DNA of 36,090 nucleotides from a bacterium (GTDB lineage Bacteria > Chlamydiota > Chlamydiia > Chlamydiales > RGXB01), in assembly GCA_010029555.1 (NCBI GenBank), contig RGXB01000001.1:1-36090 (forward strand). Direction: 5' to 3'. A model generated the notes under the pieces. That model was not told where the DNA came from. It did no database searches and worked only from the letters and a program-made list of their open reading frames with translations. How positions within the stretch are numbered: the stretch's first letter is position 1; every line of letters begins with the position of its first letter. Of this stretch, positions 18,268-36,090 are shown in pieces. Made by a program: the position numbers and the translations under genes.

Positions 18268-19452
18268 ATGCAACAGCTTAAGTTTACAGTAGATAGCCGT
18301 CAAAAAAACGAAAATGGGGTTTTTTTTGCACTTAAAGGGGCAAAAACAGACGGTCACCTTTTTTTAATGGAGGCAAAGGCAAATGGGGCAAAAGTGGCCT
18401 ACGTCTCCGATGAATACAAGGGAGACGATTTTGGATTAGAGCTGCATCTAGTAGAGGATCCATTTAAGACTCTCCAAGAGCTGGCTCGACAAAAGATTCA
18501 TGCCGCTAACCCATTCATCGTGGGAGTGACCGGCTCTTTTGGAAAAACTACCACTAAAGAGGCCCTTTACCTGGCGTTTTCCAAACAAAAAGGGTGCTTT
18601 CGTAATCCTTTAAACCAAAATTCCCAAATCGGTTTACCGCTTTCTATATTAAATTGTTACAGCAACGAACCTTTGCTATTTTTAGAGATGGGGATAGAAA
18701 TGCCGGGGGATATGGAAAATCTTGCTAGGATTGCCCCGCCTGATGTCGCAGTGATAACCCGAATAGCTGAAGCGCACTTAGACACACTCCAGACTTTGGA
18801 AAATATTGCCCTAGAAAAGGGTAAAATTGTCGTTACCCCAAAAACAAAGGTGCAATTTGTTCACTACTCGGCAAGTAGATTTTACACCGATAATCAAGAG
18901 GGAGAGCTTAAGCAAATCATTTATGGCCAAAACGGCGAGCCCCTATTTGGGGATGTGTTCGATCTAATCGAAAAAATGGGGGGGGTTCTAGGGCTTGTTC
19001 CCCAACCCTTTACATGGAAAACCCCAGATTTGAGGTATCAAACAAAAATGTACCAAAAGGGTGGGGTAATTTTAGATTGCTATAATGCTAACCCGACTAC
19101 AATGAGGATTTTTTTTCTTTCTGACCATAAAATGCAGACGGACTTGAGGAGAGTCGCAATTATCGGGCAGATGGAGAGTTTGGGAGAGAAAACAGAAGAT
19201 TATCATATGCAACTAGCCATAGATTTACAAAACTCGTTTGATGTGGCTTTTTGCATAGGAAAAAAAATGCAACTGGTGTTTGATTTTTGGAAAAAGCAGG
19301 CAAAACAGGTTTTTTGGGTAGAAACTGTTGAACAGTTAAAGCCGATTATCAAACAACAAATACAACCAAAAGACTTTGTTTTGGTGAAAGGGTCTAACGC
19401 TAATCGACTTTGGGAGGTAGAGCCATGGTTAGAGCAGGCATTGAATACATAA
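18268..19452 (+). CDS. murF: UDP-MurNAc-tripeptide:D-Ala-D-Ala ligase MurF
   Basis: MurF adds the D-Ala-D-Ala dipeptide to the cytoplasmic peptidoglycan precursor. Seen are VDSRQKNENGVFFALKG (the UDP-binding start), the Mur ligase ATP loop GVTGSFGKTTT (86-96), NPLNQNSQIGLPLSIL, LEMGIEMPGDM and the C-terminal DCYNANPTTMR and KGSNANRLWEV. At 394 residues it is short: family members of about 450 carry some 20-30 more residues before the DSR motif. A TGA at 18241-18243 blocks an in-frame extension. It leads the dcw operon and overlaps mraY. Confidence 0.93.
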   Translation: MQQLKFTVDSRQKNENGVFFALKGAKTDGHLFLMEAKANGAKVAYVSDEYKGDDFGLELHLVEDPFKTLQELARQKIHAANPFIVGVTGSFGKTTTKEALYLAFSKQKGCFRNPLNQNSQIGLPLSILNCYSNEPLLFLEMGIEMPGDMENLARIAPPDVAVITRIAEAHLDTLQTLENIALEKGKIVVTPKTKVQFVHYSASRFYTDNQEGELKQIIYGQNGEPLFGDVFDLIEKMGGVLGLVPQPFTWKTPDLRYQTKMYQKGGVILDCYNANPTTMRIFFLSDHKMQTDLRRVAIIGQMESLGEKTEDYHMQLAIDLQNSFDVAFCIGKKMQLVFDFWKKQAKQVFWVETVEQLKPIIKQQIQPKDFVLVKGSNANRLWEVEPWLEQALNT

Positions 19453-20435
19453 GCCCTTTGTTAGTGGCGCTGTTTTGTTTTTTGCTTTCCAAGTTTTGTT
19501 ACCCTTTCTGGATACGATGGATAAAAAATTTCCGTCTAGATTCTAAAGGACATGTTGATCACATCATAGATCCCGATACCAAGCTTTTAAAAGAAAAAAC
19601 ACCCTCTTTTGGAGGTGTTCCTTTCCTGATAATCCCCTTTTTCGTCGTCCCCTTTTTCGTTCAGCCTCTCCCGTCTGCCTACTATGCTTTTTTGGCGCTC
19701 GTGATCGGGATGGCTATGGTTGGGTTAATCGATGATCTCTATAAACTTATCCCCTCAAAAAAGGGGATATCGGCCAAGGGAAAATCGCTTGGACAAATTG
19801 TTGCCGCTACAATTTTTTTGACCCTTTTATTTTCCGGTGAGCACGACTTTCTATTAAAAATCCCTTTCGGATCGGAAATCAGCTTTGCAAGTGTAGGTTC
19901 AAAATGTTGTTTTTTGTTTTTTTTGGCCTTTATACTAGTTGGGACTTCGAATGCTGTTAATTTAACCGACGGTATGGATGGACTTGCCGGCTTATTGAGT
20001 ATTGTAAGCCTCTTTTTTTTAGCACTCATCAGTTATTTTGAAGGGCAGGTCTTTACCACTTGTATGATTATGGCTTTTACTGGCGCTCTTTTCGGTTTTT
20101 ATCTCGTGAATAAAAAGCCGGCACGGATATTCATGGGGGACGTAGGGTCTTTACCCTTAGGAGGCCTGATAGCGGGATTTTCTATCTACCTTCACCAGGA
20201 GTTGGTACTCGTTTTTTTGGGCGGCATGTTTGTTATAGAGACTCTATCGGTGATTCTTCAAGTCAGCTATTACAGGCAAACTCAAAAGAGAATTTTTCGT
20301 TGCGCTCCTTTACACCACCATTACCAGTTTCATGGACAAAAAGAGGAGGTGATCGTCAGCCGATTTGCTCTTGTCCAAATTCTTTTTGCTTTTGGGGGAT
20401 TTTTACTCTATTACCTTGCGAGGATGTATGTATAG
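19425..20435 (+). CDS. mraY: Phospho-MurNAc-pentapeptide transferase MraY
   Basis: MraY moves phospho-MurNAc-pentapeptide to undecaprenyl phosphate, making lipid I in the inner membrane. Hallmarks: KTPSFGGVPF, MVGLIDDLYKL (Asp pair), NLTDGMDGLAG, FMGDVGSLPLGG and the HHH cluster in CAPLHHHYQFHG. About ten membrane helices are visible. I start at ATG 19425 because GGGAGG lies 7 bases upstream; an upstream TTG at 19410 would lie over the RBS. Length 336 residues is typical. It overlaps murF by 28 bases and murD by 8. Confidence 0.94.
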   Translation: MVRAGIEYISPLLVALFCFLLSKFCYPFWIRWIKNFRLDSKGHVDHIIDPDTKLLKEKTPSFGGVPFLIIPFFVVPFFVQPLPSAYYAFLALVIGMAMVGLIDDLYKLIPSKKGISAKGKSLGQIVAATIFLTLLFSGEHDFLLKIPFGSEISFASVGSKCCFLFFLAFILVGTSNAVNLTDGMDGLAGLLSIVSLFFLALISYFEGQVFTTCMIMAFTGALFGFYLVNKKPARIFMGDVGSLPLGGLIAGFSIYLHQELVLVFLGGMFVIETLSVILQVSYYRQTQKRIFRCAPLHHHYQFHGQKEEVIVSRFALVQILFAFGGFLLYYLARMYV

Positions 20436-21522
20436 ACCTCTCATTTTAGGGCAGGGGCAGAGTGGAAAATCGGCTTTTCGTCTTTTTTTAAAAGAGAATA
20501 TTATTCCTGTACTTTACGATGATCAATCAAAAACTGCCGTTGATTTCACCTTAATAGACCGTGTTGTCGTTTCACCGGGTTTTACTCAGGAGCATCCCCT
20601 GATACAGATGGCCTATGAAAAAGGGATCAAGGTGCAATCTGAAGTGGATCTTGCCTTAGAAAAAATGTCAGCAGGTTGTCTTATAGGGATCACAGGTTCT
20701 AATGGGAAATCCACATGCGTAAAAAAAATGGAGCATGTTTTCCTTTCTTTAGGATTCAAAGCCAAAGCGCTTGGAAATATTGAGATCCCCTTAACCTCAG
20801 AAGATCTTAGCGGTTATGACATAGTCGTAATCGAGATGAGTGCGCAACAACTTGAGACTACACACTCTAGAGTATTAGATCTTGGTGTGATTCTTAATAT
20901 CCAGCCAAACCATTTAGATCGCTACCATACTATGGAGAGGTATGAGCAGGTAAAAAGGAAAATTTTCCATTTAGTAAGGGAAGGGGGAACCAGTTTAGGT
21001 CCTAATACCTCTATGGAGGAGATTTGGGATTGGGTGGCCAAAAAGTTTTCGATCGATAAAGAAAAGATCTACGAGGCTTTAACTACTTATCAAAATTTAC
21101 CACATCGATTAGAATATCTTGGAGACTTTTTTGGAAAAAAAATTTACAATGATTCTAAGTCTACCACAATTAGTTCTACCCTTTACGCTTTGAACGCTGT
21201 TGAAGGGCCGGTGCAGCTGATTCTCGGAGGGAGATCCAAAGGGGAAAATCTCCTCTCCTTTCGGGAAAATCTTCTTAAGAGACCCCTAAAAAGGATTTTG
21301 GCGATCGGGGAAACCATGCACATCATAAAAGAGATTTTTGATCCTAAGATCGAAGTTGTCCTTTGTGAGACCTTGGAAAAGGCTGTAGATGAGGGTTTAA
21401 AAGGGGAGGGCAATCTTTTATTGTCCCCCGGTTTTGCAAGTTATGATCAATTTAACTCCTATGCTCATAGAGGGGAGTCGTTTAAACAGAGGATAGAATG
21501 GGAAAAAAAGATGCTATCTTAA
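20428..21522 (+). CDS. murD: UDP-MurNAc-L-Ala:D-Glu ligase MurD
   Basis: MurD adds D-glutamate to UDP-MurNAc-L-Ala. Seen are the N-terminal LGQGQSGKS, VVSPGFTQEHP, the ATP loop GITGSNGKST, NIQPNHLDRYHTMERY, HRLEYLGDFFGKKIYNDSKSTTI-type C-terminal start and LLLSPGFASYDQF. At 364 residues it is well short of the usual 430-450. The missing part lies in the central domain after IFHLVREGG, where a typical MurD has roughly 60-70 more residues. The start ATG 20428 gives MYRPLILG with GAGG upstream, overlapping the mraY stop. Function is probably kept since the catalytic segments remain. Confidence 0.9.
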   Translation: MYRPLILGQGQSGKSAFRLFLKENIIPVLYDDQSKTAVDFTLIDRVVVSPGFTQEHPLIQMAYEKGIKVQSEVDLALEKMSAGCLIGITGSNGKSTCVKKMEHVFLSLGFKAKALGNIEIPLTSEDLSGYDIVVIEMSAQQLETTHSRVLDLGVILNIQPNHLDRYHTMERYEQVKRKIFHLVREGGTSLGPNTSMEEIWDWVAKKFSIDKEKIYEALTTYQNLPHRLEYLGDFFGKKIYNDSKSTTISSTLYALNAVEGPVQLILGGRSKGENLLSFRENLLKRPLKRILAIGETMHIIKEIFDPKIEVVLCETLEKAVDEGLKGEGNLLLSPGFASYDQFNSYAHRGESFKQRIEWEKKMLS

Positions 21523-22109
21523 TCACAGTTTTGATGAATTGCATCCTGTTATTTTTTGTTTTTTTTACAGGGCGTCAAAGTGAACCTCTGAAACCTTCTC
21601 CCAAGGAGGCTTCCGTTGCTTTGGAGTCCACAAAAGCCGACCTTTCTAAAAAAGAGGGGATTGACGAGGTGGATCAATTACTCAAAAAACTGACCCAAAC
21701 ACATCTTCTTGAAGAAAAGCCCGCAGTAGAAAAAGTCGCAAAGCTCAAAGAAGAGCCCCAAAAACCGTTGGAGGCGATGCCTGAGGGGGAGAAAACGATA
21801 CCGCAAGATATAATCGTCCGAGCAGGCGATACACTTGATAAGATTGCGCGTAGCTATGGATTGAGTGTTGAAGAGATCATGCGCACGAATCATCTGATCG
21901 ATTCCAGACTACAAATTGGGCAGGTTTTGAAGTTAACGAAATCCTCAAAAAAGGGTCAGGAAAAATACTATACAGTGAAAAATGGGGATAATCCCTGGAC
22001 GATTGCCATGAAAAATCAGATGAAAGTCGACGAGCTTTTGCGCCTCAATAATCTTGATGAGGAGAAAGCAAAAAGGCTCAAGCCGGGAGATCAGCTGAGA
22101 ATACAATGA
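21498..22109 (+). CDS. LysM-domain membrane-anchored protein
   Basis: This 203-residue protein has a short charged start, one N-terminal membrane helix (ILITVLMNCILLFFVFF), a Lys/Glu-rich linker and two LysM domains: IIVRAGDTLDKIARSYGLSVEEI (about 107-150) and YYTVKNGDNPWTIAMKNQMKVDEL (about 158-202). LysM binds the glycan strands of peptidoglycan. No M23 peptidase domain follows, unlike true NlpD. In Chlamydia I recall a LysM protein at this same place, annotated nlpD. The gene overlaps murD by 25 bases and ftsW by 4 (ATGA), with AGAGGA before its ATG. Confidence 0.88.
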   Translation: MGKKDAILITVLMNCILLFFVFFTGRQSEPLKPSPKEASVALESTKADLSKKEGIDEVDQLLKKLTQTHLLEEKPAVEKVAKLKEEPQKPLEAMPEGEKTIPQDIIVRAGDTLDKIARSYGLSVEEIMRTNHLIDSRLQIGQVLKLTKSSKKGQEKYYTVKNGDNPWTIAMKNQMKVDELLRLNNLDEEKAKRLKPGDQLRIQ

Positions 22110-23215
22110 GCCTAGTATCCAGACTTTTATTGATTTTGACGCTCTCGGTATTTTCTCTAGGACTTGTGATGGTATATAATACCACTTCAGGCGAGCTACT
22201 GGATCGGATGCATGAGTTTGGGTTGATAGATTCCCTTTTAAAACAGGGGGCTTACGGGGTCTTAGGCCTTGTCATGGGGACAGTTGTGTTTGTGACTGGC
22301 CATAAAAAATGGATTGAATACGCCCCCTTATTATTTGGGGTTTTTTGCCTTCTTTTAGTTCTTGTATTTGTCCCTAAAATAGGGTGTACAATCAATGGTG
22401 CCAAAAGATGGATTAAGCTCTTGGGGCTCACTTTTCAGCCCTCCGAGATGATGAAAATTTTATTGCCGTTGTTTTATATTTGGTATCTACAAAAAAGGGA
22501 AAATTTCGGATCGCTTAAAAAGTTTCTAGAAATTTTAGGGCTGCTAGCGGTTCCAATTTTTCTCATTTTGGTAGAGCCCGATAATGGGACAGCTCTGATT
22601 CTAACCTCTACCATCATAGTACTCCTTTTTCTCAGCCGTGTACCTTTCCGTTTTTGGTTAGCTCCCATCATGGTTTTTATTAGTATTGCCGCAATTTTCG
22701 CTTCAAAAATGCCCCATGTACAGAACAGAATACAGATCTATTTAGACCCCGAGACCGATCTTTTAGGGAAAGGGCATCAACCCTACCAAGCCAAAATAGC
22801 TGCAGGGTCCGGAGGACTTCACGGCAAAGGGCTAGGGCAGAGTTTACAAAAGTATAATTACCTCCCTGAGGCTAGAAGCGATTACATTCTGGCGATTTTT
22901 GCAGAGGAGTTTGGCTTAAGGGGAATTATTGCCCTTATATTGGTCTACATGTGGATCATTTTTTTAGGATTCATTGTAGCGATGAGAACCACCGATAAAC
23001 AGAGTTTTCTTTTAGCTGCATCTTTGAGTTATGTTTTTGCCATTCAGGCCTTTTTAAATATGGGGATCGTATCGGGGCTTTTGCCTAGCAAAGGAACAAG
23101 CCTGCCGTTCATGAGTCAGGGGGGGTCCTCTTTAATTGCAAATGCAATACTGATTTGCCTTTTGATGGAAATAGATGAGGTAAGATGTCGTGTAACCAGA
23201 TTGCACTTAGCGTAG
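22106..23215 (+). CDS. ftsW: Lipid II polymerase FtsW (SEDS family)
   Basis: SEDS proteins polymerise lipid II together with a class B penicillin-binding protein. Many membrane helices are visible. Family motifs are NGAKRWIKLLGLTFQPSEMMKI, EPDNGTALIL, YLPEARSDYILAIFAEEFG and GLLPSKGTSLPFMSQGGSSL. At 369 residues it is of normal length. FtsW versus RodA is decided by the dcw context: it lies between the LysM gene and murG. The start overlaps the previous stop as ATGA. Confidence 0.93.
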   Translation: MSLVSRLLLILTLSVFSLGLVMVYNTTSGELLDRMHEFGLIDSLLKQGAYGVLGLVMGTVVFVTGHKKWIEYAPLLFGVFCLLLVLVFVPKIGCTINGAKRWIKLLGLTFQPSEMMKILLPLFYIWYLQKRENFGSLKKFLEILGLLAVPIFLILVEPDNGTALILTSTIIVLLFLSRVPFRFWLAPIMVFISIAAIFASKMPHVQNRIQIYLDPETDLLGKGHQPYQAKIAAGSGGLHGKGLGQSLQKYNYLPEARSDYILAIFAEEFGLRGIIALILVYMWIIFLGFIVAMRTTDKQSFLLAASLSYVFAIQAFLNMGIVSGLLPSKGTSLPFMSQGGSSLIANAILICLLMEIDEVRCRVTRLHLA

Positions 23216-24168
23216 GGGGAACCTTTGGTCACTTGCGCCCGGCGTTAGAGGCGGCAAATTCGGCAAAAGGGCGCTCTTTTTTGATTGGAATAGGTTTAAA
23301 AGACTCCCCATTCTTAAAGGGTATAAACTGCGAGGTTGTCTCTTTAGAAGGGGCTCGGGTGTTCCATCATCTTTTAAAAAGCTGTTGGCAAGCTTTTATC
23401 GCCTTTCAAAAGAAAAATCCCCAAATAGTGATCAGTTTTGGTAGTTTTCATAGTTTTCCAGCTACATGCATCGCTCTATTTTTAGGGAAACCGATCTGGG
23501 TATTTGAGCCCAACGCTACTATGGGTAAGGCGAATAGATTTTTCTCTTTTTTTGCACACAAAGTGCTTTGTTACGACGAAAATCTTGTGCTCGAGTTTCC
23601 TAACCGGGGCGTGTTGATCGCTCCTGAAATGGAACAAAAAGAGAAAAAAGCGATCTATACCTCGTTTGGTCTTAGCGAAAATAGGCCGGTTTTGTTGATT
23701 ATTGGAGGTTCCTCAGGTTCCAAATTCATCAATGAGTGGGTAGAAAAAAATTGTCATAAACTTAAAGAATTCCAATTAATCCATTTAGTCGGCCCAAAAA
23801 ATGATCCCGACCGCTGGAGAAAAGTATACAGCTCCTTAGAGATCACAGCCTATGTAGAGCCATTTATTTCCAATGTAAAGGAGGCTATGCAGATTGCAGA
23901 TATTGCCCTCACCAGAGCAGGGGCAAGCACTTTGTTCGAGCTTTATCATTACGCAGTCCCCTCTTTAATCATCCCTTTCGAAGGGGCTTACGAGCATCAG
24001 AAACAAAATGGTTTAAGCTTTTTAGAAAAAGGGGGGCAAGGGGTTCTTGTTTCCGAAAATGAAGAGGAAAAAATACTTTCTAGTCTTTTGGGGCTAATGG
24101 GTCTTAAAAAAGACCAAATCTTTGACGTAAAAGGGAAAAAATGGAGCGATATCATTTCATTGGCATAG
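23185..24168 (+). CDS. murG: UDP-GlcNAc:lipid I transferase MurG
   Basis: MurG adds GlcNAc to lipid I to give lipid II at the inner leaflet. Assignment rests on order between ftsW and murC and on family segments: N-terminal SVGGTFGHLRPALEAA, IGGSSGSKFIN (phosphate loop), and LTRAGASTLFELYHYAVPSLIIPF with YEHQKQNGLSFLEKGGQ. Length (327) is a little below the usual 350. The N-terminal loop normally reads GGTGGHxxPA; here the second glycine pair is Phe-Gly and the His is retained. RBS GAGGT precedes the ATG. It overlaps ftsW by 31 bases and murC by 28. Confidence 0.9.
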   Translation: MSCNQIALSVGGTFGHLRPALEAANSAKGRSFLIGIGLKDSPFLKGINCEVVSLEGARVFHHLLKSCWQAFIAFQKKNPQIVISFGSFHSFPATCIALFLGKPIWVFEPNATMGKANRFFSFFAHKVLCYDENLVLEFPNRGVLIAPEMEQKEKKAIYTSFGLSENRPVLLIIGGSSGSKFINEWVEKNCHKLKEFQLIHLVGPKNDPDRWRKVYSSLEITAYVEPFISNVKEAMQIADIALTRAGASTLFELYHYAVPSLIIPFEGAYEHQKQNGLSFLEKGGQGVLVSENEEEKILSSLLGLMGLKKDQIFDVKGKKWSDIISLA

Positions 24169-25442
24169 GGGGAATTGGCATGAGTGCACTTGCCAGTATC
24201 CTTTTAGATCAAGGCCATACCGTTTCGGGCTCTGATTTGGTACTGAATGAAAGGGCTCTGTACTTGCGAAAAAGGGGCGCTGAAATTTTTGAAGGGCATG
24301 AAAATACTGTAGTCCATGAGGAGGCAATAGCGGTAATACACTCGCGCATACCTCAAGATCATCCAGAATTGCGCCATGCCAAAAGAAAAATCCACCGCCT
24401 AGATTTATTTACCAAAATTGCGGGGCAAACCCCTGTGTTTGCCGTAGTGGGGGCGCATGGTAAAACCTCTACTTCGGCCCTTTTAGCTCATGTTTTGCAT
24501 TCCTATGACTCCGATACTGGATTCAAAGTTGGAGGTGTTTGGAAACAGTCGGGGTTGAACGGCAAATCTGGACGGACAAAATATGTTTTGGAAGGGGATG
24601 AGAGTGATGGTTCTTTTCTGAGAATCCATCCAGAAGGGGCTATTATTACCAACGTCGACGCAGATCACCTGGATTTCTGGGGAAGCTTTTTTTCTTTAAA
24701 AAAAGGGTATAGTGATTTTTTAAAGACGGTAAAAAAAAGCGAATGGATTTTTTATGCTGCAGGTGAAGATGAGGGTCTTGTGCAAAGTGGTACCTCTTAT
24801 GGGATTGGGAAAGGGGACATTCAGGCGATCAATTTGCGCATTCATGAAGACGGCTCTATTTTTGATATAATACAGCCTTCAGAAAATTTGTTTGTAAAAG
24901 ACGTTTACATACCCTTGATGGGAGAACATCAGGTGAAAAATGCTCTTGGGGTTTTTGGAATGGCAAAAGCTTTAGGGGTAAAACCAGACTTTATCAAAGA
25001 GTCTTTTCGATCTTATGAAGGGGTCAAAAGGCGTTGTGAAAAGGGGCGAGATTTTACTAGTTGGAAAACATTTTTAGATTATGGTCACCATCCAAAAGAG
25101 CTTGCAACTACCTTTGAGGCGCTGAAGAGACAATACAATATCCCTCTATTCGTTGTGTTTGAACCCCACAAGTATTCGCGCACAAAAAACCTTTTTCAAG
25201 CTTTTGTTGAGGTGCTGAAAATTCCTCAAGCGGTGTGTATACTACAGACATATGCCGCGGATGAAAAGTATGATTATGAGGGTTCCTCAGAAAAATTGGC
25301 AAAAGCACTGGGAATTGCGGTTACAAAAAAGGGAGAGATAAAAACCGTTTTAGAAAAAATGAGTAAAGACAGTGGGGAAAAGGGGGTGCTTCTTTTTATC
25401 GGTGCCGGAAACATAGATAGGATTTTTGAGGAATGTCTTTAA
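24141..25442 (+). CDS. murC: UDP-MurNAc:L-alanine ligase MurC (not fused to Ddl)
   Basis: MurC starts the peptide stem by adding L-Ala to UDP-MurNAc. Seen are YHFIGIGGIGMSALA (2-16), the ATP loop GAHGKTSTS (104-112), EGDESDGSFL, NVDADHLDFWGSF, DYGHHPKELATTFEAL and FEPHKYSRT. It ends at residue 433 with LLFIGAGNID. In Chlamydiaceae murC is fused to ddl as one long protein; here it ends as a plain MurC, and no ddl follows in the window. Its 3' end overlaps ftsQ by 10 bases. Confidence 0.95.
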   Translation: MERYHFIGIGGIGMSALASILLDQGHTVSGSDLVLNERALYLRKRGAEIFEGHENTVVHEEAIAVIHSRIPQDHPELRHAKRKIHRLDLFTKIAGQTPVFAVVGAHGKTSTSALLAHVLHSYDSDTGFKVGGVWKQSGLNGKSGRTKYVLEGDESDGSFLRIHPEGAIITNVDADHLDFWGSFFSLKKGYSDFLKTVKKSEWIFYAAGEDEGLVQSGTSYGIGKGDIQAINLRIHEDGSIFDIIQPSENLFVKDVYIPLMGEHQVKNALGVFGMAKALGVKPDFIKESFRSYEGVKRRCEKGRDFTSWKTFLDYGHHPKELATTFEALKRQYNIPLFVVFEPHKYSRTKNLFQAFVEVLKIPQAVCILQTYAADEKYDYEGSSEKLAKALGIAVTKKGEIKTVLEKMSKDSGEKGVLLFIGAGNIDRIFEECL

Positions 25443-30132: not shown

Positions 30133-30318
30133 TTATTCAACTCTTTTTAAAAAATCTTTCATGAGTCGTTTGATTTTTTTACAACTTGTACCCCAAGGAT
30201 ACATGTTTGCCAGGATCTCGTCCTCAAAACCTTCGAGGAAGCTTAATTGATGCTCTTCGGGTGGATTTTTGTCCGGTAAAGAATGTTTCTTCATCTCTAA
30301 TTTAGAGGATTTGTCCAT
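30133..30318 (-). CDS. Possible small hypothetical protein
   Basis: This is a 61-residue frame with ATG at 30318. It is charged (MDKSSKLEMKKHSLPDKNPPEEHQLS) and ends in a basic helix KKIKRLMKDFLKRVE. There is a weak GGGTGA before the ATG. No family is recognised. It lies between bioY and the first acyltransferase fusion on the opposite strand. It might be a real small gene, or the first part of a broken gene continued in another frame at 29870-30085. Confidence 0.3.
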   Translation of the reverse strand: MDKSSKLEMKKHSLPDKNPPEEHQLSFLEGFEDEILANMYPWGTSCKKIKRLMKDFLKRVE

Positions 30319-30360: not shown

Positions 30361-33186
30361 TTGCAAATTTTAAATGAGGAGGTTGCCCCACCCCTTTTAA
30401 AAAAAATTGTGGAAAAAGACCCTTTTTTGCAAGAAGAGAATAGGTTAAGGTTTGATGTGATTAGAGATATTAGCATCCGGATTCTGTCATTTACAGTGAG
30501 GAGGTTGTTTAGCCTTCGCTATCGTGTGCATTTGCACGGGCTAGATGAGGTAAAAAAAATCCTCAAATCAGATAAACCTGTGGTGGTTTTACCCAATCAT
30601 CCGGCCATGACCGATACCTGGCTTTTGTACTCAATTATCGGGCAGATAGTATCACTTAAACCGGTTATGTTAGAAAAATTTTTTACCCAAAAAGGGTTGT
30701 ACTGGATTTACAGATTACTCCAGGCTATACCGGTTCCCGATTTCGAGGTCATCGTAAATGAGTGGAAAGCCCGACAAGGGGATAGGGCTTACGAAGAGAT
30801 TCTCAAAACTCTAAATCGCAAAGAAAAGGTGATCATCTATCCTGGCGGTACGTTAAAAAATTCGAGCAAAGAGAGTTTAAGGGGAAAGTCCGCTGTACAC
30901 AGGTTGCTATCTGAGGAGATTGATCTCGAGGTCATTCTTGTGAGAACTACCGGTTTATGGGGAAGCTCTTTTTCGCATGGGATTTTAGGAAATACTCCCG
31001 ATTCCTGGGAAACATTGAAAAAATCCTTTTTCCTTTTATGGAAAAATTTGATTTTTTTTATGCCTAAAAGAGATGTAACAATAGAATTTTATCGCCTTCC
31101 GTCCGATTTTTCCATTCCAGAGAGTAAAATGGAGTTCAATCGGTTCCTAGAGGGTTGGTACAACCAGTATAAGTATCAGGACGCCACCGAATCTGAGGAG
31201 AGACCGAATCTTGTTCCCTATTTATTTTGGGATAAAAAGGGTTCCACCCCGAAAGCTTATCTATCTTGTTCAAAGACGTTAGATAAAGATGTTAAGGTTC
31301 CGGTAAATATGCGGGAGATGATCTTAAGCAAACTCAGTAAAATGACAGGTTTTCCAAAAGAGCACATTCATCCTGAGCAGAATTTGGCCGTGGATCTTGG
31401 TTGTGACTCGATCGACCTGTCAAATTTGATCCTATTTTTGGAGCAAAAATTCCCTGTTAGTTCGAAATTCTGTTCCTTAGATATTGTCTATGTGCAGGAT
31501 CTTTTTCTAGTCGCTCTAAATAAAAAAGTACCTTGTGTGAATGAAATCTTGTTGAAAGAAAAGTCTCGGGGTTGGAAAGAGCAGGTGTTTGCTGTAACGA
31601 AAAGATTTGAGGTGCTTGGTAAAACCATTCCTGAAGCTTTTATTCATCGGATGAAACTTGTAGCAGATAAAGAAATTGTTGCAGATAAAACAGTTACTCT
31701 TACAGGTAAAGAAACGCTTTTCACAACGATTCTTTTAGCTGGTAAGATCCGTAAAATAGAGGGTAAATACATAGGGATAATACTTCAACCATGTGTCGAC
31801 GAATCCTTGATTCTTTTTGCTGCAATGTTAGCCGGAAAAGTTCCAGTATTGATCAATTGGAATAACGGTTATGCGAGCACAGATGAATTGATGCGAATGC
31901 TCTCTATAAAATCGGTATTCACATCGCGCAAATTTCTTGATCATGAACCTCATTTTGAATTGGGGAATATAGAACCTTTGCTAGTTATGATAGAGGATTT
32001 TTACACAGATATTTCTGTTTTTGAAAAGTTAAATGCCCACCTTTTGGCCTCCAAATCCACAAGCTCTATTTTGAGCCATTTTGGGTTAGACGGTTTGTCC
32101 GAGGACGTGAACGCTCTTGTGCTATGTAAATGTATTAGCGAACATCTACCAAAATTTATTCCGCTTACACACAAAAACCTGATTGTTAATATAGAAGATC
32201 TAGGGGAGAGATTGTTATCTCAAGAAATCTCCACCTTTCTGTGTTGCACTGCACTTTATTACTCTAATGGGTTGATAGTTACGACCCTTCTTCCTCTTTT
32301 AAACGGATTGAGGGTCTTTTTTTCGCAAGAATTGACCTATTATCCTTTTCTCGCTAAACAGATTCAGGACTGGGGTATCGATTTCTTAGATTTGACTGTT
32401 TCAAAACACTACAAAGAATTATTCAATTGCTGTGAGCCAGCTCAACTAGTGTCGCTTAGGTTCTTAGTAAGCGAAAATGCGACGCAATCCGTTAGAGATA
32501 AACTAAAAAAGATCAATCCCAAAGCGAAAATTTACCTTGGGTTTGGGACGACAGAGACTTCTGTGTTGACTTCACAAACTCACAAGGACCAGAAGCCTAA
32601 AGGTCTCGGAAGGGCTCTAAAAAGAGTCGAATTGATTGTAGTTGACCCACAAGATTTAAAACCTGTATCGCAAGGGGTAGAAGGAGAAGTACTGGCGCAT
32701 GGTCCCTCAATTTTCAATGGTTACCTTGATGAAAAATTAGAGTCCCCTTTTGTAAATTTAAATGGTAAATCTTTTTTTCGAACAGGGTATTTTGGTTATT
32801 TGGATACGAAGGGAAATCTGATCACTGACAATAAAAGGGGAGCAAATACTTTAACCAGGGTCTCGGGCAATTTAGTCAAATTGCCCATGATAGAGCAATT
32901 TTTGACCTACAAGGCCAAAGAGTTGGGTTGGTCAAGCGCTCTAGGAAACAAAGGGAATTCGTTTGTTGTAATTCCTCTCCAAACAGAGGATAAAAAAAAC
33001 GAGCTTGTATTGATAAGTTCACTTGACGTTTCTTTAGATGAGGTAAACAAAATCATAGCAGAATCTGCTTTACCTAACTTCTGTAGATTACACCGACTAT
33101 TAAAAGTCACAGAGATCCCATTGCTGTCGAGTGGTAATGCGGATGTCAAGGCCTTAACCGAGCTAGCGCATAGAGAGTTCTTATGA
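30361..33186 (+). CDS. PlsC acyltransferase-ACP-(degenerate) acyl-ACP synthetase fusion, copy 1
   Basis: Numbered from TTG 30361 this is 941 residues. The acyltransferase has HPAMTD (His80-Asp85, HX4D), IYPGGTLK and VRTTGLWGSSFS. It is followed by an acyl carrier domain (about 337-415) with the phosphopantetheine serine in DLGCDSIDLS (Ser350), then an ANL adenylate-forming domain. That last domain is damaged at core motifs: the P-loop reads CKCISEHLPK where copy 2 has CTSGTESHPK; the FHCFG motif is YYSNG; the TGD motif is TGY (Tyr810); GRLKRFTKVGG is replaced by KRGANTLTRVSG; and the catalytic Lys is Asn926. The frame is intact. GTG 30457 (AAGG 6 bases before) is the alternative start, aligning with copy 2. 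Probably active in acyl transfer but not in fatty acid activation. Confidence 0.82.
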   Translation: MQILNEEVAPPLLKKIVEKDPFLQEENRLRFDVIRDISIRILSFTVRRLFSLRYRVHLHGLDEVKKILKSDKPVVVLPNHPAMTDTWLLYSIIGQIVSLKPVMLEKFFTQKGLYWIYRLLQAIPVPDFEVIVNEWKARQGDRAYEEILKTLNRKEKVIIYPGGTLKNSSKESLRGKSAVHRLLSEEIDLEVILVRTTGLWGSSFSHGILGNTPDSWETLKKSFFLLWKNLIFFMPKRDVTIEFYRLPSDFSIPESKMEFNRFLEGWYNQYKYQDATESEERPNLVPYLFWDKKGSTPKAYLSCSKTLDKDVKVPVNMREMILSKLSKMTGFPKEHIHPEQNLAVDLGCDSIDLSNLILFLEQKFPVSSKFCSLDIVYVQDLFLVALNKKVPCVNEILLKEKSRGWKEQVFAVTKRFEVLGKTIPEAFIHRMKLVADKEIVADKTVTLTGKETLFTTILLAGKIRKIEGKYIGIILQPCVDESLILFAAMLAGKVPVLINWNNGYASTDELMRMLSIKSVFTSRKFLDHEPHFELGNIEPLLVMIEDFYTDISVFEKLNAHLLASKSTSSILSHFGLDGLSEDVNALVLCKCISEHLPKFIPLTHKNLIVNIEDLGERLLSQEISTFLCCTALYYSNGLIVTTLLPLLNGLRVFFSQELTYYPFLAKQIQDWGIDFLDLTVSKHYKELFNCCEPAQLVSLRFLVSENATQSVRDKLKKINPKAKIYLGFGTTETSVLTSQTHKDQKPKGLGRALKRVELIVVDPQDLKPVSQGVEGEVLAHGPSIFNGYLDEKLESPFVNLNGKSFFRTGYFGYLDTKGNLITDNKRGANTLTRVSGNLVKLPMIEQFLTYKAKELGWSSALGNKGNSFVVIPLQTEDKKNELVLISSLDVSLDEVNKIIAESALPNFCRLHRLLKVTEIPLLSSGNADVKALTELAHREFL

Positions 33187-33270
33187 TGGTCGAGGTAAAA
33201 AGCAGGACTGATTATTTAAAATTTTTCTCGTCATTTAACCTTTCTTTTGGTTTTTGAAAAAAGGCTAAAA

Positions 33271-33417
33271 ATGGGCTACAGCAAAATGGGGTTTGAAGAA
33301 GAAGTCCCCATTTTGCTAGAATACCATCAGTTTTTTTTACACATAGTTCAAGGGGTTAATGGTGATAAGAGATATTTTTATCAGGATCCTATCCTTTCTT
33401 TTAAGGAGGCTGATTAG
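33271..33417 (+). other. Out-of-frame 48-codon ORF overlapping the start of copy 2
   Basis: ATG 33271 opens a frame (MGYSKMGFEEEVPILLEYHQ at its start) that runs across the copy 2 ATG and stops at 33415-33417. EEEVPILL resembles NEEVAPPLL in the N-terminal extension of copy 1. It may be a remnant of an N-terminal extension moved out of frame, an upstream coupled ORF, or chance. No RBS is clear. Confidence 0.25.
33280..33317. repeat. 12-bp perfect inverted repeat between the two fusion genes
   Basis: AGCAAAATGGGG (33280-33291) is repeated inverted as CCCCATTTTGCT (33306-33317) with a 14-base spacer. A run of eight T begins at 33331, 13 bases after the stem. It could be a terminator for copy 1, an attenuator for copy 2, or a protein-binding palindrome. 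The rest of the 172-base gap is T-rich and featureless. Confidence 0.55.
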
Positions 33418-36090
33418 CCTTCGCTATCGCGTCCGATTAAAAGGATTGGATGAGATAAAAAAAATCTTGAAGTCAAATAAACCCGTCGTTGTGTTACCTA
33501 ATCACCCGGCAATGACCGACCCATTGCTACTCTACTCTGTTTTGGGGCAGATAGCATCGTTAAAGCCGATTATGGACGAGCGATTTTACTACCAAAAAGG
33601 GGTGAACTGGCTTTTTAGGTGTATCCGTGTCGTGCCAATACCCGATTTTGAGCTCGTTGTTAATGAGTGGAAAGAAAGACAAGGGGAGCTGGCTTACCAA
33701 AGTATTCGCCGCTCTCTAGATCGCAAAGAAAAGGTGATCATCTATCCCGGGGGTGGACTTAAAAGATCTGGCAAAGAGTATCTGGGGGGGAAGTCTTTTG
33801 TCCATAGATTGCTTTCAGAGGATCCTAATCTAGAGGTGATTCTCGTAAGAACGACCGGTTTATGGGGCAGCTCATTTTCAAGAGCGATTATTGGAGACTC
33901 ACCGAATTTCTGGGAAACGGCAAAAAGGTCTATCGTCCTGTTGTGCAAAAATTTAATTTTTTTCATGCCTAAAAGGGATATAACAATAGAATTTTCGCCC
34001 CTGCCTGCCGATTTTCCCTACCAAGTAAGCAAAATTCAGTTTAATCGCTATCTAGAGAGCTGGTACAACCAGTACAAGTATTCCGATGGTACCGAATTAC
34101 AAGAAAGACCCAGCCTTGTCCCTTATCTATTTTGGGATAAAAAGGGTTCGACTCCAAAAGCATTTGTGTTTAGCTCGCAAACCTTAAATAGAGATGTCGA
34201 AGTTCCACAAGAAATGCGAGAGGTCATCTATAACAAGCTTAGTAAAATAACTGGTCGCCCCAAGGTTCAAATCAAAGACGACCAAGATTTAGCCGTTGAT
34301 TTGGGTTGCGACTCTCTAGATTTATCTAATCTTATCACCTTTTTGGATCTCAAATTCGGTATTGATAAGAAGATCTCTTCAATGGATCTGGTGCATGTAT
34401 TTGACCTCTTTTTGGTAGCTTTGCAAAAAAAAGTGCCTAAAGCGCGTGAAATGCAGTCAAAGGATATGCTGCGAGGCTGGAAACAGAAAAGCGTTTTGGG
34501 GATAAAAAAACTAGAGGTGCTTGGTAAAACTATTCCTCAAGCTTTTGTCGAGCGGATGAAACGTCTCGCAGGGAAAGAGATTATCGCAGATGAGACTGCC
34601 AATCTTACTGGGAAAAAAGCGCTGATAGCGACGATTCTTCTAGCAAGCAAGATCCGTAAGCTTGAGGGGAGATACGTAGGTGTCATGCTTCCGGCAACGG
34701 TTGGCTCAACACTAATTATCTTCGCGACGATGTTGGCTGGAAAAGTTCCCGTGATGATCAACTGGACTTCGGGATCCAGGAGCACTGATCACGTGATTCA
34801 TACCCTGTCTATTAAATCGGTATTGACAGCTCGTAAATTCCTAGATCGGGTGGCCCACATTGAATTGGGGGCTATAGAACCCCTATTAGTTTTTGCCGAA
34901 AATCTTAAACTAAGGATTTCAATTTTAGACAAATTAAAAGCTCTACTACTGTCTTCTAAACCCACAAAGTCTATTTTGGCTCATTTTGGGATCGAAAGTC
35001 TTTCTGATGAGATGAATGCCGTTGTTCTTTGCACAAGTGGAACAGAATCTCACCCCAAATCGGTACCGCTGTCGCATAAAAATTTGATTGCGAATATCGA
35101 GGATCTTGAGGATGTAATTTATCCCTTCGAGACAAAATCTTTTCTAAATGCTTTACCGCAGTTTCACTGTTTTGGACTTACCGTGATGACCTTACTTCCG
35201 ATGCTGAGTGGTATCAGAGTCTACTTTTCCCCCGATCCGACCGATTCCCCAAGAATCGCTCAGGAGATTCAAGCCTGGGATATCGATCTTTTGGCATTGA
35301 CACCAAGCTTTTATGCAAACCTTCTAGCCTCTAGTGAACCAGGTCAGCTCCAATCGCTCAGGGTATGCATTACCGGGGCTGAAAAAGCGCCGAAAGCTCT
35401 GATTGAGCATCTTTATAAAATGAATCCTCAGGCAAAACTACTAGAAGGATACGGTATCACCGAGTGTTCTCCTGTTTTGTCTGCTCAGCGTTTTAGGGAG
35501 GAGAACCATATAGGTGTAGGTCGTGCCTTAAGCAAAGTCGAATTGATTATTGTCGACAGAGAGAATTTAAAACCTCTTCCTCAGGGGGAAGACGGGGAGA
35601 TATTGGCACGGGGCCCCTCCATTTTTAAGGGGTATATTGAAAAAGATATCAAATCCCCTTTTGTGTTGATCAATGGGAAATCGTATTATCGTACAGGAGA
35701 TTTTGGTCAACTGGATGCCGAAGGGAACCTAATTCTAAAGGGGAGGTTGAAACGTTTTACCAAAGTTGGTGGCGAGATGGTGAATTTGCCCCTGATAGAG
35801 GAGATTTTGACTAATACTGCAAAAGGTTTGGGTTGGTTTACCGGTATGCGTAAAATTGACAGTCCCTTTGTTGTGATCCCTATTGAAAAAGAGGGAGAAA
35901 AAACCGAACTTGTATTGATCAGTATCGTGGATACTACTGTCGATGAGGCCAACAAAATCCTGTTTAAGTCGGGATTGCCTAAATATTTTAGAATGCACCA
36001 TGTGGTAAAAGTCTCTGATATGCCGCTACTTGGCTCGGGTAAAGTCCATCTTCGGGCGTTAACCGACTTGGCTAAAAAGGAAATATCCTA
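33359..36090 (+). CDS. aas: PlsC acyltransferase-ACP-acyl-ACP synthetase fusion, copy 2 (stop just outside)
   Basis: From ATG 33359 the frame is open to the window end for 910 codons plus TA, so a stop probably falls one base beyond. The acyltransferase has HPAMTD (His49-Asp54), IYPGGGLK and VRTTGLWGSSFS. The acyl carrier domain has Ser319 in DLGCDSLDLS. The adenylation domain is complete: P-loop TSGTESHPK (559-567), LPQFHCFGL, ITGAEKAP, GYGITECSP, RTGDFG (Asp781), GRLKRFTKVGG and the C-terminal LGSGKVHL with Lys895. Like E. coli Aas it should activate a fatty acid with ATP and transfer it to a lysophospholipid, with its own ACP domain as possible carrier. The acyltransferase half is closer to copy 1 than the ligase half. 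AAGGGG precedes the ATG. Confidence 0.88.
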   Translation, partial: MVIRDIFIRILSFLLRRLISLRYRVRLKGLDEIKKILKSNKPVVVLPNHPAMTDPLLLYSVLGQIASLKPIMDERFYYQKGVNWLFRCIRVVPIPDFELVVNEWKERQGELAYQSIRRSLDRKEKVIIYPGGGLKRSGKEYLGGKSFVHRLLSEDPNLEVILVRTTGLWGSSFSRAIIGDSPNFWETAKRSIVLLCKNLIFFMPKRDITIEFSPLPADFPYQVSKIQFNRYLESWYNQYKYSDGTELQERPSLVPYLFWDKKGSTPKAFVFSSQTLNRDVEVPQEMREVIYNKLSKITGRPKVQIKDDQDLAVDLGCDSLDLSNLITFLDLKFGIDKKISSMDLVHVFDLFLVALQKKVPKAREMQSKDMLRGWKQKSVLGIKKLEVLGKTIPQAFVERMKRLAGKEIIADETANLTGKKALIATILLASKIRKLEGRYVGVMLPATVGSTLIIFATMLAGKVPVMINWTSGSRSTDHVIHTLSIKSVLTARKFLDRVAHIELGAIEPLLVFAENLKLRISILDKLKALLLSSKPTKSILAHFGIESLSDEMNAVVLCTSGTESHPKSVPLSHKNLIANIEDLEDVIYPFETKSFLNALPQFHCFGLTVMTLLPMLSGIRVYFSPDPTDSPRIAQEIQAWDIDLLALTPSFYANLLASSEPGQLQSLRVCITGAEKAPKALIEHLYKMNPQAKLLEGYGITECSPVLSAQRFREENHIGVGRALSKVELIIVDRENLKPLPQGEDGEILARGPSIFKGYIEKDIKSPFVLINGKSYYRTGDFGQLDAEGNLILKGRLKRFTKVGGEMVNLPLIEEILTNTAKGLGWFTGMRKIDSPFVVIPIEKEGEKTELVLISIVDTTVDEANKILFKSGLPKYFRMHHVVKVSDMPLLGSGKVHLRALTDLAKKEIS

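Follow-up and report, generated by a model that had tools for sequence, protein, structure and literature searches.

Two head-to-tail genes at the 3' end of a Chlamydiota contig encode proteins with the domain order acyltransferase (AT)-ACP-ANL ligase, and the ligase domain of the first (copy 1) is, judging from its residues, almost certainly catalytically dead. The combination of this ligase with an AT and an ACP kept under selection makes copy 1 most likely an acyl-transfer unit that would rely on a trans source of activated acyl groups, either copy 2 or fatty-acid synthesis, a reading that we hold with slightly better than even confidence.

The canonical copy 2 and the layout of the pair

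The window (the whole stretch of DNA that was analysed) is the complete 36,090 bp contig C1 of a Chlamydiota MAG (1.41 Mb, 343 contigs, 62.5% complete) that also encodes AcpS and free AcpP. The features of the pair, which was compared with the single copy-2-type genes of two congeners (L001 in genome G002 and L002 in genome G001), are as follows.

30361-33186, plus strand: copy 1 open reading frame (AT-ACP-pseudo-ligase) from TTG, 941 codons/aa (ORF list)
30457..33186, plus strand: copy 1 from its likelier GTG start, about 909 aa (start-region homology, AF2 confidence, eroded-looking promoter block)
30454..31248, plus strand: copy 1 lysophospholipid-type AT domain, HX4D intact at 30598-30615 (Pfam PF01553)
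31249..31578, plus strand: copy 1 ACP domain, phosphopantetheine serine S350 intact at 31408-31410 in DLGCDSID (PF00550)
31579..33183, plus strand: copy 1 putative pseudo-ligase (ANL) domain (motif comparison; ANL fold predicted)
32128-32154, plus strand: copy 1 P-loop, KCISEHLPK (motif comparison)
32788-32790, plus strand: copy 1 TGD Asp changed to Tyr (motif comparison)
32824-32874, plus strand: copy 1 A8 region (motif comparison)
33136-33138, plus strand: copy 1 A10 Lys changed to Asn (motif comparison)
33280..33317, no strand: perfect 12-bp inverted repeat, AGCAAAATGGGG...CCCCATTTTGCT, between the copies (sequence search)
33293..33345, plus strand: promoter-like block before copy 2 (alignment with the L001 and L002 upstream regions)
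33359..36088, plus strand: copy 2, predicted canonical AT-ACP-ANL acyltransferase/acyl-ACP synthetase, 910 codons/aa (ORF list, Pfam, motifs)
34313..34315, plus strand: copy 2 ACP serine S319 (homologue alignment)

The two proteins are 58% identical, and the ORFs and Pfam domains agree with the preliminary description of tandem paralogues sharing this domain order. Pfam finds Acyltransferase (PF01553), PP-binding (PF00550, just below the cut-off, although above it for copy 1 when searched genome-wide) and AMP-binding (PF00501) in each, with AMP-binding scores of 195 bits for copy 2 vs 98 bits for copy 1. The copy 2 frame is still open at the contig end (36090) and has no visible stop because the contig ends there; in the syntenic congener gene (L001, 7001-9733) a stop follows immediately after the codon equivalent to the last of copy 2.

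By its sequence, copy 2 is the chlamydial form of Aas (lysophospholipid acyltransferase/acyl-ACP synthetase) with a built-in ACP. The HX4D residues H49 and D54 are conserved (PF01553, 40 bits) and ANL motifs A3-A10 are complete (TSGTESHPK, FHCFG, YGITE, TGD, GRLKRFTKVGGE and GSGK), as had been claimed for its core motifs. Its acyl acceptor is likely to be ACP rather than CoA, given the built-in ACP with its serine (PF00550). The closest NCBIfam models are PRK08633 and PRK06814 (bifunctional acyltransferase/acyl-ACP synthetases) and PRK06334 (Chlamydia acyl-ACP ligase), all below their cut-offs; with best scores of 423/1221 bits (PRK08633) and 352/847 bits (PRK06334), copy 2 is a relative of the family outside those equivalogs. 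It is 80-82% identical to the single genes of the two congeners.

The AT-ACP-ANL protein is nearly universal in Chlamydiota, its AT-ACP part being found in 129 and its ligase part in 132 of 138 good genomes, and homologues also occur in other PVC bacteria. AT motif III reads YP[A/S/G]G, without the Glu that PlsC has in its PEG motif, in all 63 first-set homologues covering it (residues 126-140 of copy 2, window 33734-33778). Two further observations concern the rest of the window. A small conserved minus-strand ORF of 61 aa (...YPWGTSCKKIKRLMKDFLKRVE; 30133-30318) lies between an MreD-like gene and copy 1, with counterparts of 52-56 aa in the corresponding position in L001 and L002. A run of cell-wall genes (18268-25442) includes a MurC-like protein of 433 aa (24141-25442) without a C-terminal Ddl fusion, a fusion that Chlamydia MurC carries.

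Ligase residues, structure and selection in copy 1

Relative to copy 2, copy 1 is substituted in the P-loop (T559K, S560C, G561I) and in the other motifs (F602Y, H603Y, D781Y, R796K, R799T, K802R, G804S, E806N, K895N), so that it has K-C-I, Tyr, K/T/R and Asn at the P-loop, TGD Asp, A8 Arg/Lys and A10 Lys in place of the pattern of an active ANL enzyme. The residues changed are nearly invariant across 66 PVC homologues, and P-loop T/S/G/K, F602, H603, E702, D781, R796, K802, E806 and K895 are present in all 79 Chlamydiota ligase domains of a set that was sampled separately and overlaps the first (some genes are in both). Loss of near-invariant ligase residues is confined to copy 1 in both sets, and because these residues vary so little elsewhere the losses are far beyond chance. 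ANL enzymes cannot adenylate once the TGD Asp, the A8 region and the A10 Lys are lost, and for this reason the copy 1 ligase is judged almost certainly dead. The preliminary description had called the copy 1 motifs all altered; every change that it named is real, but the wording was slightly too strong, as the P-loop Lys (K567 -> K598) and the A5 Thr and Glu are retained. Its proposal of a pseudo-ligase domain is strongly supported by the lost residues. A search for literature on ANL pseudoenzymes found none, and a broader pseudoenzyme search returned none on ANL enzymes among its titles and abstracts. Other AMP-binding matches in the genome (C13, C305) are different proteins, so a third copy or rescue ligase was rejected.

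The remaining domains are differently preserved. Among columns at least 95% conserved in the family, copy 1 has changed 1 of 22 in the AT, 1 of 4 in the ACP (L to I) and 31 of 67 in the ANL domain; that is, it keeps 21/22 of the AT columns and 36/67 of the ligase columns. Losses in the ANL domain are concentrated in the catalytic motifs (22/34, vs 9/33 elsewhere; Fisher p = 0.003). The HX4D motif and the ACP serine are both kept, as first noted by eye and now seen in the homologue alignment; the latter stands in CDSID, a form of the DSL/DSI motif, and is Ser in all homologues covering the site.

The AF2 model of copy 1 (33 homologues) has a pLDDT of 81.6 and a pTM of 0.78, with pLDDT below 50 at 592-595 (P-loop), 825-830 (A8 hinge), the N-terminal extension and the linker. 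For copy 2 the values are 86.7 and 0.83, and the only stretch below 50 is 367-369 (linker). Foldseek matches the copy 1 model to ANL ligases with E down to 3e-29, a fold that the input alignment of active homologues favours.

Selection was examined with a codon model in which neutral branch lengths were shared across parts, and independent fits were also run. The omegas on the copy 1 branch, which are approximate as synonymous sites are near saturation between congeners and early and late phases are averaged over the branch, are 0.149 (AT), 0.269 (ACP), 0.242 (ANL-N), 0.360 (ANL core) and 0.381 (ANL C-terminal part), whereas the background lies at 0.02-0.04. For each part the fit rejects omega = 1 (2dlnL 13-30), and a single relaxation factor for all parts is rejected too (2dlnL 36, 4 df), with relaxation strongest in the ligase; copy 1 is thus more constrained than a neutral sequence, to a degree that differs from domain to domain. 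The core and C-terminal part of the ligase change at family-conserved sites about as frequently as at variable sites, and retention of hydrophobic residues in the copy 1 ligase is no better than expected (not significant), so there is weak support for selection acting on the fold of the dead domain.

The main rival reading is the slow decay of a redundant copy 1, in which the ligase was lost first, the promoter eroded and the AT-ACP part is to follow, leaving a reading frame without function. This would account for a copy 1 branch omega that is 4-17 times the background in every part, the AT among them, and for the presence of copy 1 in one genome of the three from the genus. It sits poorly with the frame itself, since the copies differ at 42% of residues and copy 1, through its 941 codons, has zero stops and no indels other than small in-frame ones, whereas a neutral simulation run to a comparable divergence yields about 18 stops overall (about 11.8 in the ligase) and a minimum of 10 in 200 runs; the rejection of omega = 1 in every part and the conserved AT columns argue against it as well. 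Lacking stops, frameshifts and an omega near 1, copy 1 is so far not simply a pseudogene, and we regard decay as a possibility to be taken seriously, though an improbable one.

A newly gained chemistry in the copy 1 ANL domain, or binding of an acyl-AMP-like ligand with no adenylation, would be compatible with the open frame, the predicted ANL fold and motifs that are changed rather than deleted. We consider it very unlikely, as the P-loop, TGD Asp, A8 and A10 Lys were lost together, constraint is flat at the formerly conserved core and C-terminal sites, and there is no sign of a new conserved site.

Duplication, start site and upstream regions

Identity between the copies falls from 71% in the AT to 59% in the ACP and 51% in the ANL domain, which confirms the visual impression that the N-terminal halves are more alike than the ligase halves; copy 2 and the congener proteins are about 80-83% identical in each of the three domains. 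Seven other Chlamydiota paralogue pairs with intact ligases show an ANL identity about equal to or higher than that of the AT, the reverse of the window. Among these observations, an independent tandem duplication (L090, L091, L098 and L102, in G173 and G172) likewise has intact ligases and an AT less alike than the ANL, a trend opposite to that of the window, and G172, G173 and G183 have tandem or near duplicates in which both ligases are intact. Gene conversion was rejected as the source of the similar N-terminal halves, there being no near-identity tract (90-nt windows <=0.78, no exact match longer than 28 nt). Between the copies, twofold codons agree more often in the AT than in the ANL domain (0.83 vs 0.65) and fourfold codons do not (0.42 vs 0.45); the twofold likeness leaves a small place for some old gene conversion in the AT.

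No copy 1 orthologue was found in the two congener genomes searched, each of which has one copy-2-type gene. The order up to the gene in L001 is that of the window (fabF, MreD-like, the gene), and cysS and lysS follow it in L001; the L002 contig ends just upstream of the gene, so synteny is seen for L001 only. At same-amino-acid sites of all four genes, the fraction of shared codons is 0.525 for copy 1/copy 2, vs 0.412 for copy 2/L001 (p = 0.0004) and 0.448 for copy 2/L002 (p = 0.02). Because synonymous codons agree more often between the two copies than between copy 2 and either congener, the duplication is lineage-specific and younger than the split from the two congeners. A duplication predating the genus split, as in a weakly supported protein tree (80/31), is contradicted by this codon sharing, and the tree is probably pulled by the long copy 1 branch.

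The same data bear on an assembly artefact, in which copy 1 would come from another organism or be a chimera. The MAG is in 343 pieces and the contig ends inside the pair, but the upstream gene order is that of the congener, the codon sharing ties the copies to each other, and the region between them carries the ancestral upstream block, all of which make an artefact extremely improbable.

That block, common to the congeners' single genes, reads TTGAAG-N18-TAGAAT and then TCAGTTTTTTTTA before copy 2, and resembles an extended -10 promoter (TTGAA..., TGCTA[G/T]AAT). Alignment of the copy 2 upstream region with those of L001 and L002 scores above all 200 shuffles; a promoter consensus scan alone finds sites no more numerous than chance. 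Upstream of copy 1 only a remnant of the block aligns (score 32 vs a shuffle maximum of 31), in which the -10 is changed and the stretch after it is gone. The ancestral promoter block before copy 1 therefore looks eroded, which weakens the case for strong copy 1 expression, is the main support for decay and makes a late decay of copy 1 possible.

The remnant also bears on the start codon. The 32-codon extension from TTG 30361 reads through it, is absent from copy 2 and the congeners' genes and has the lowest model confidence, and for these reasons the true start is probably GTG 30457, where the start regions of the other genes align. The protein would then be about 909 aa. The 12-bp inverted repeat overlaps the copy 2 promoter block, is expected by chance 0 times and has no counterpart in the upstream regions of the L001 and L002 genes; it could be a copy 1 terminator or an operator.

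Proposed role and comparison with known systems

In the canonical copy 2, the ANL domain would activate a free fatty acid with ATP and load it onto the phosphopantetheine of the internal ACP, which would present the acyl group to the N-terminal HX4D acyltransferase for re-acylation of a lysophospholipid. In copy 1, with a ligase that appears dead and an AT and ACP that appear selected, acyl groups may arrive by either of two routes: copy 2 may charge the ACP of copy 1 inside a mixed oligomer, or copy 1 may take acyl-AcpP from fatty-acid synthesis. The dead ligase would probably be kept as a structural or oligomerisation part. The preliminary description had suggested that copy 1 persists to transfer acyl groups or to serve as a carrier that is charged in trans; the domain-wise constraint and the existence of ligase-less AT-ACP paralogues fit this, and the interpretation as a whole is partly supported. 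Such paralogues, the substrate use of CT775 and the self-association of Aas serve as precedents by analogy for a trans-fed copy 1. Against it stand its occurrence in one MAG, where the lack of a copy 1 orthologue leaves no orthologue selection test, and the eroded-looking promoter block. In a more specific picture, which we think clearly less likely than not, the copies are joined in a mixed Aas complex: a single live ligase loads both carrier domains, the dead ligase serves as scaffold and the second AT, possibly with a different lipid preference, is fed in trans.

Copy 1 might instead be a regulatory pseudoenzyme that modulates the ligase or the membrane placement of copy 2 in a mixed oligomer, its own acyl transfer being unneeded. 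The copies are adjacent, Aas-type enzymes can self-associate (PMC11416262), and dead paralogues activating a partner are known from other families (PMC5201418, PMC3663545). Yet the best-kept part of copy 1 is the AT with its catalytic HX4D, together with the ACP serine, and regulation alone would need neither, so we think it unlikely.

If the mixed complex is real, it would give a pseudo-adenylating enzyme a role in the recycling of membrane lipids in bacteria, and copy 1 would be a clean example of a pseudo-ligase in an otherwise intact acyl-transfer protein beside a live twin. It raises the testable question of whether an Aas-type ligase can load the carrier domain of another chain. The full-length, ligase-less and split forms in Chlamydiota suggest that activation and transfer are separable modules in the reuse of fatty acids by these intracellular bacteria.

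Dead paralogues that partner an active enzyme, such as the prozyme of AdoMetDC and the dead DHS paralogue, resemble the window in being active/dead pairs, but they have other folds and reactions, and the partnership shown there is one that the window pair may have. MFS(LplT)-fused Aas proteins (PRK08633, PRK06814) are the best NCBIfam matches, below cut-offs; their models have an extra N-terminal part, and the window proteins have no MFS domain. LplT-Aas fusions are described (PMC11416262), and L015 and L035 have an extra N-terminal membrane-transporter part (MFS-like, LplT-type). L095 has an extra N-terminal MFS-like part as well, without an ACP and with a PEG-type AT motif.

E. coli Aas (NCBIfam PRK08043) likewise combines an N-terminal HX4D acyltransferase and a C-terminal ANL acyl-ACP synthetase in one chain, with acyl-ACP channelled to the acyltransferase (PMC6167442, PMC11416262), and it self-associates in a two-hybrid test (PMC11416262). 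It differs in using a separate holo-ACP, where the window proteins have an ACP domain built in between, in having a PEG motif III where these have YPxG (no Glu), and in having a working ligase where copy 1 has none.

Ligase-less AT-ACP proteins (L103-L108; 405-520 aa, families f11 and f19) are found in six other Chlamydiota genomes, namely G012 and G029, with a short ANL remnant (L103, L104), and G091, G105, G110 and G111. They keep HX4D and the ACP serine, as copy 1 does, but their ligase is physically lost or a remnant, whereas that of copy 1 is full-length and apparently dead. A full-length AT-ACP-ligase protein accompanies them in five of the six genomes, all but G105 (in G012 it is cut by a contig end). 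A G105 ligase protein without ACP was considered as the natural trans partner of its AT-ACP protein and rejected, being of another, MFS-fused type.

Chlamydia LpaT (CT775) and AasC (CT776; PRK06334) provide both activities from adjacent genes, and the copy 2 ANL domain aligns along the full AasC model (PRK06334). The Chlamydia-type L079 has an adjacent AT and ligase without an ACP domain, a split arrangement matching LpaT and AasC (PMC6167442). Unlike the window proteins, these are two proteins with no ACP domain, and the stand-alone CT775, which has no fused ligase, takes both acyl-ACP and acyl-CoA (PMC5693948); these reach the AT in trans, as is proposed for copy 1.
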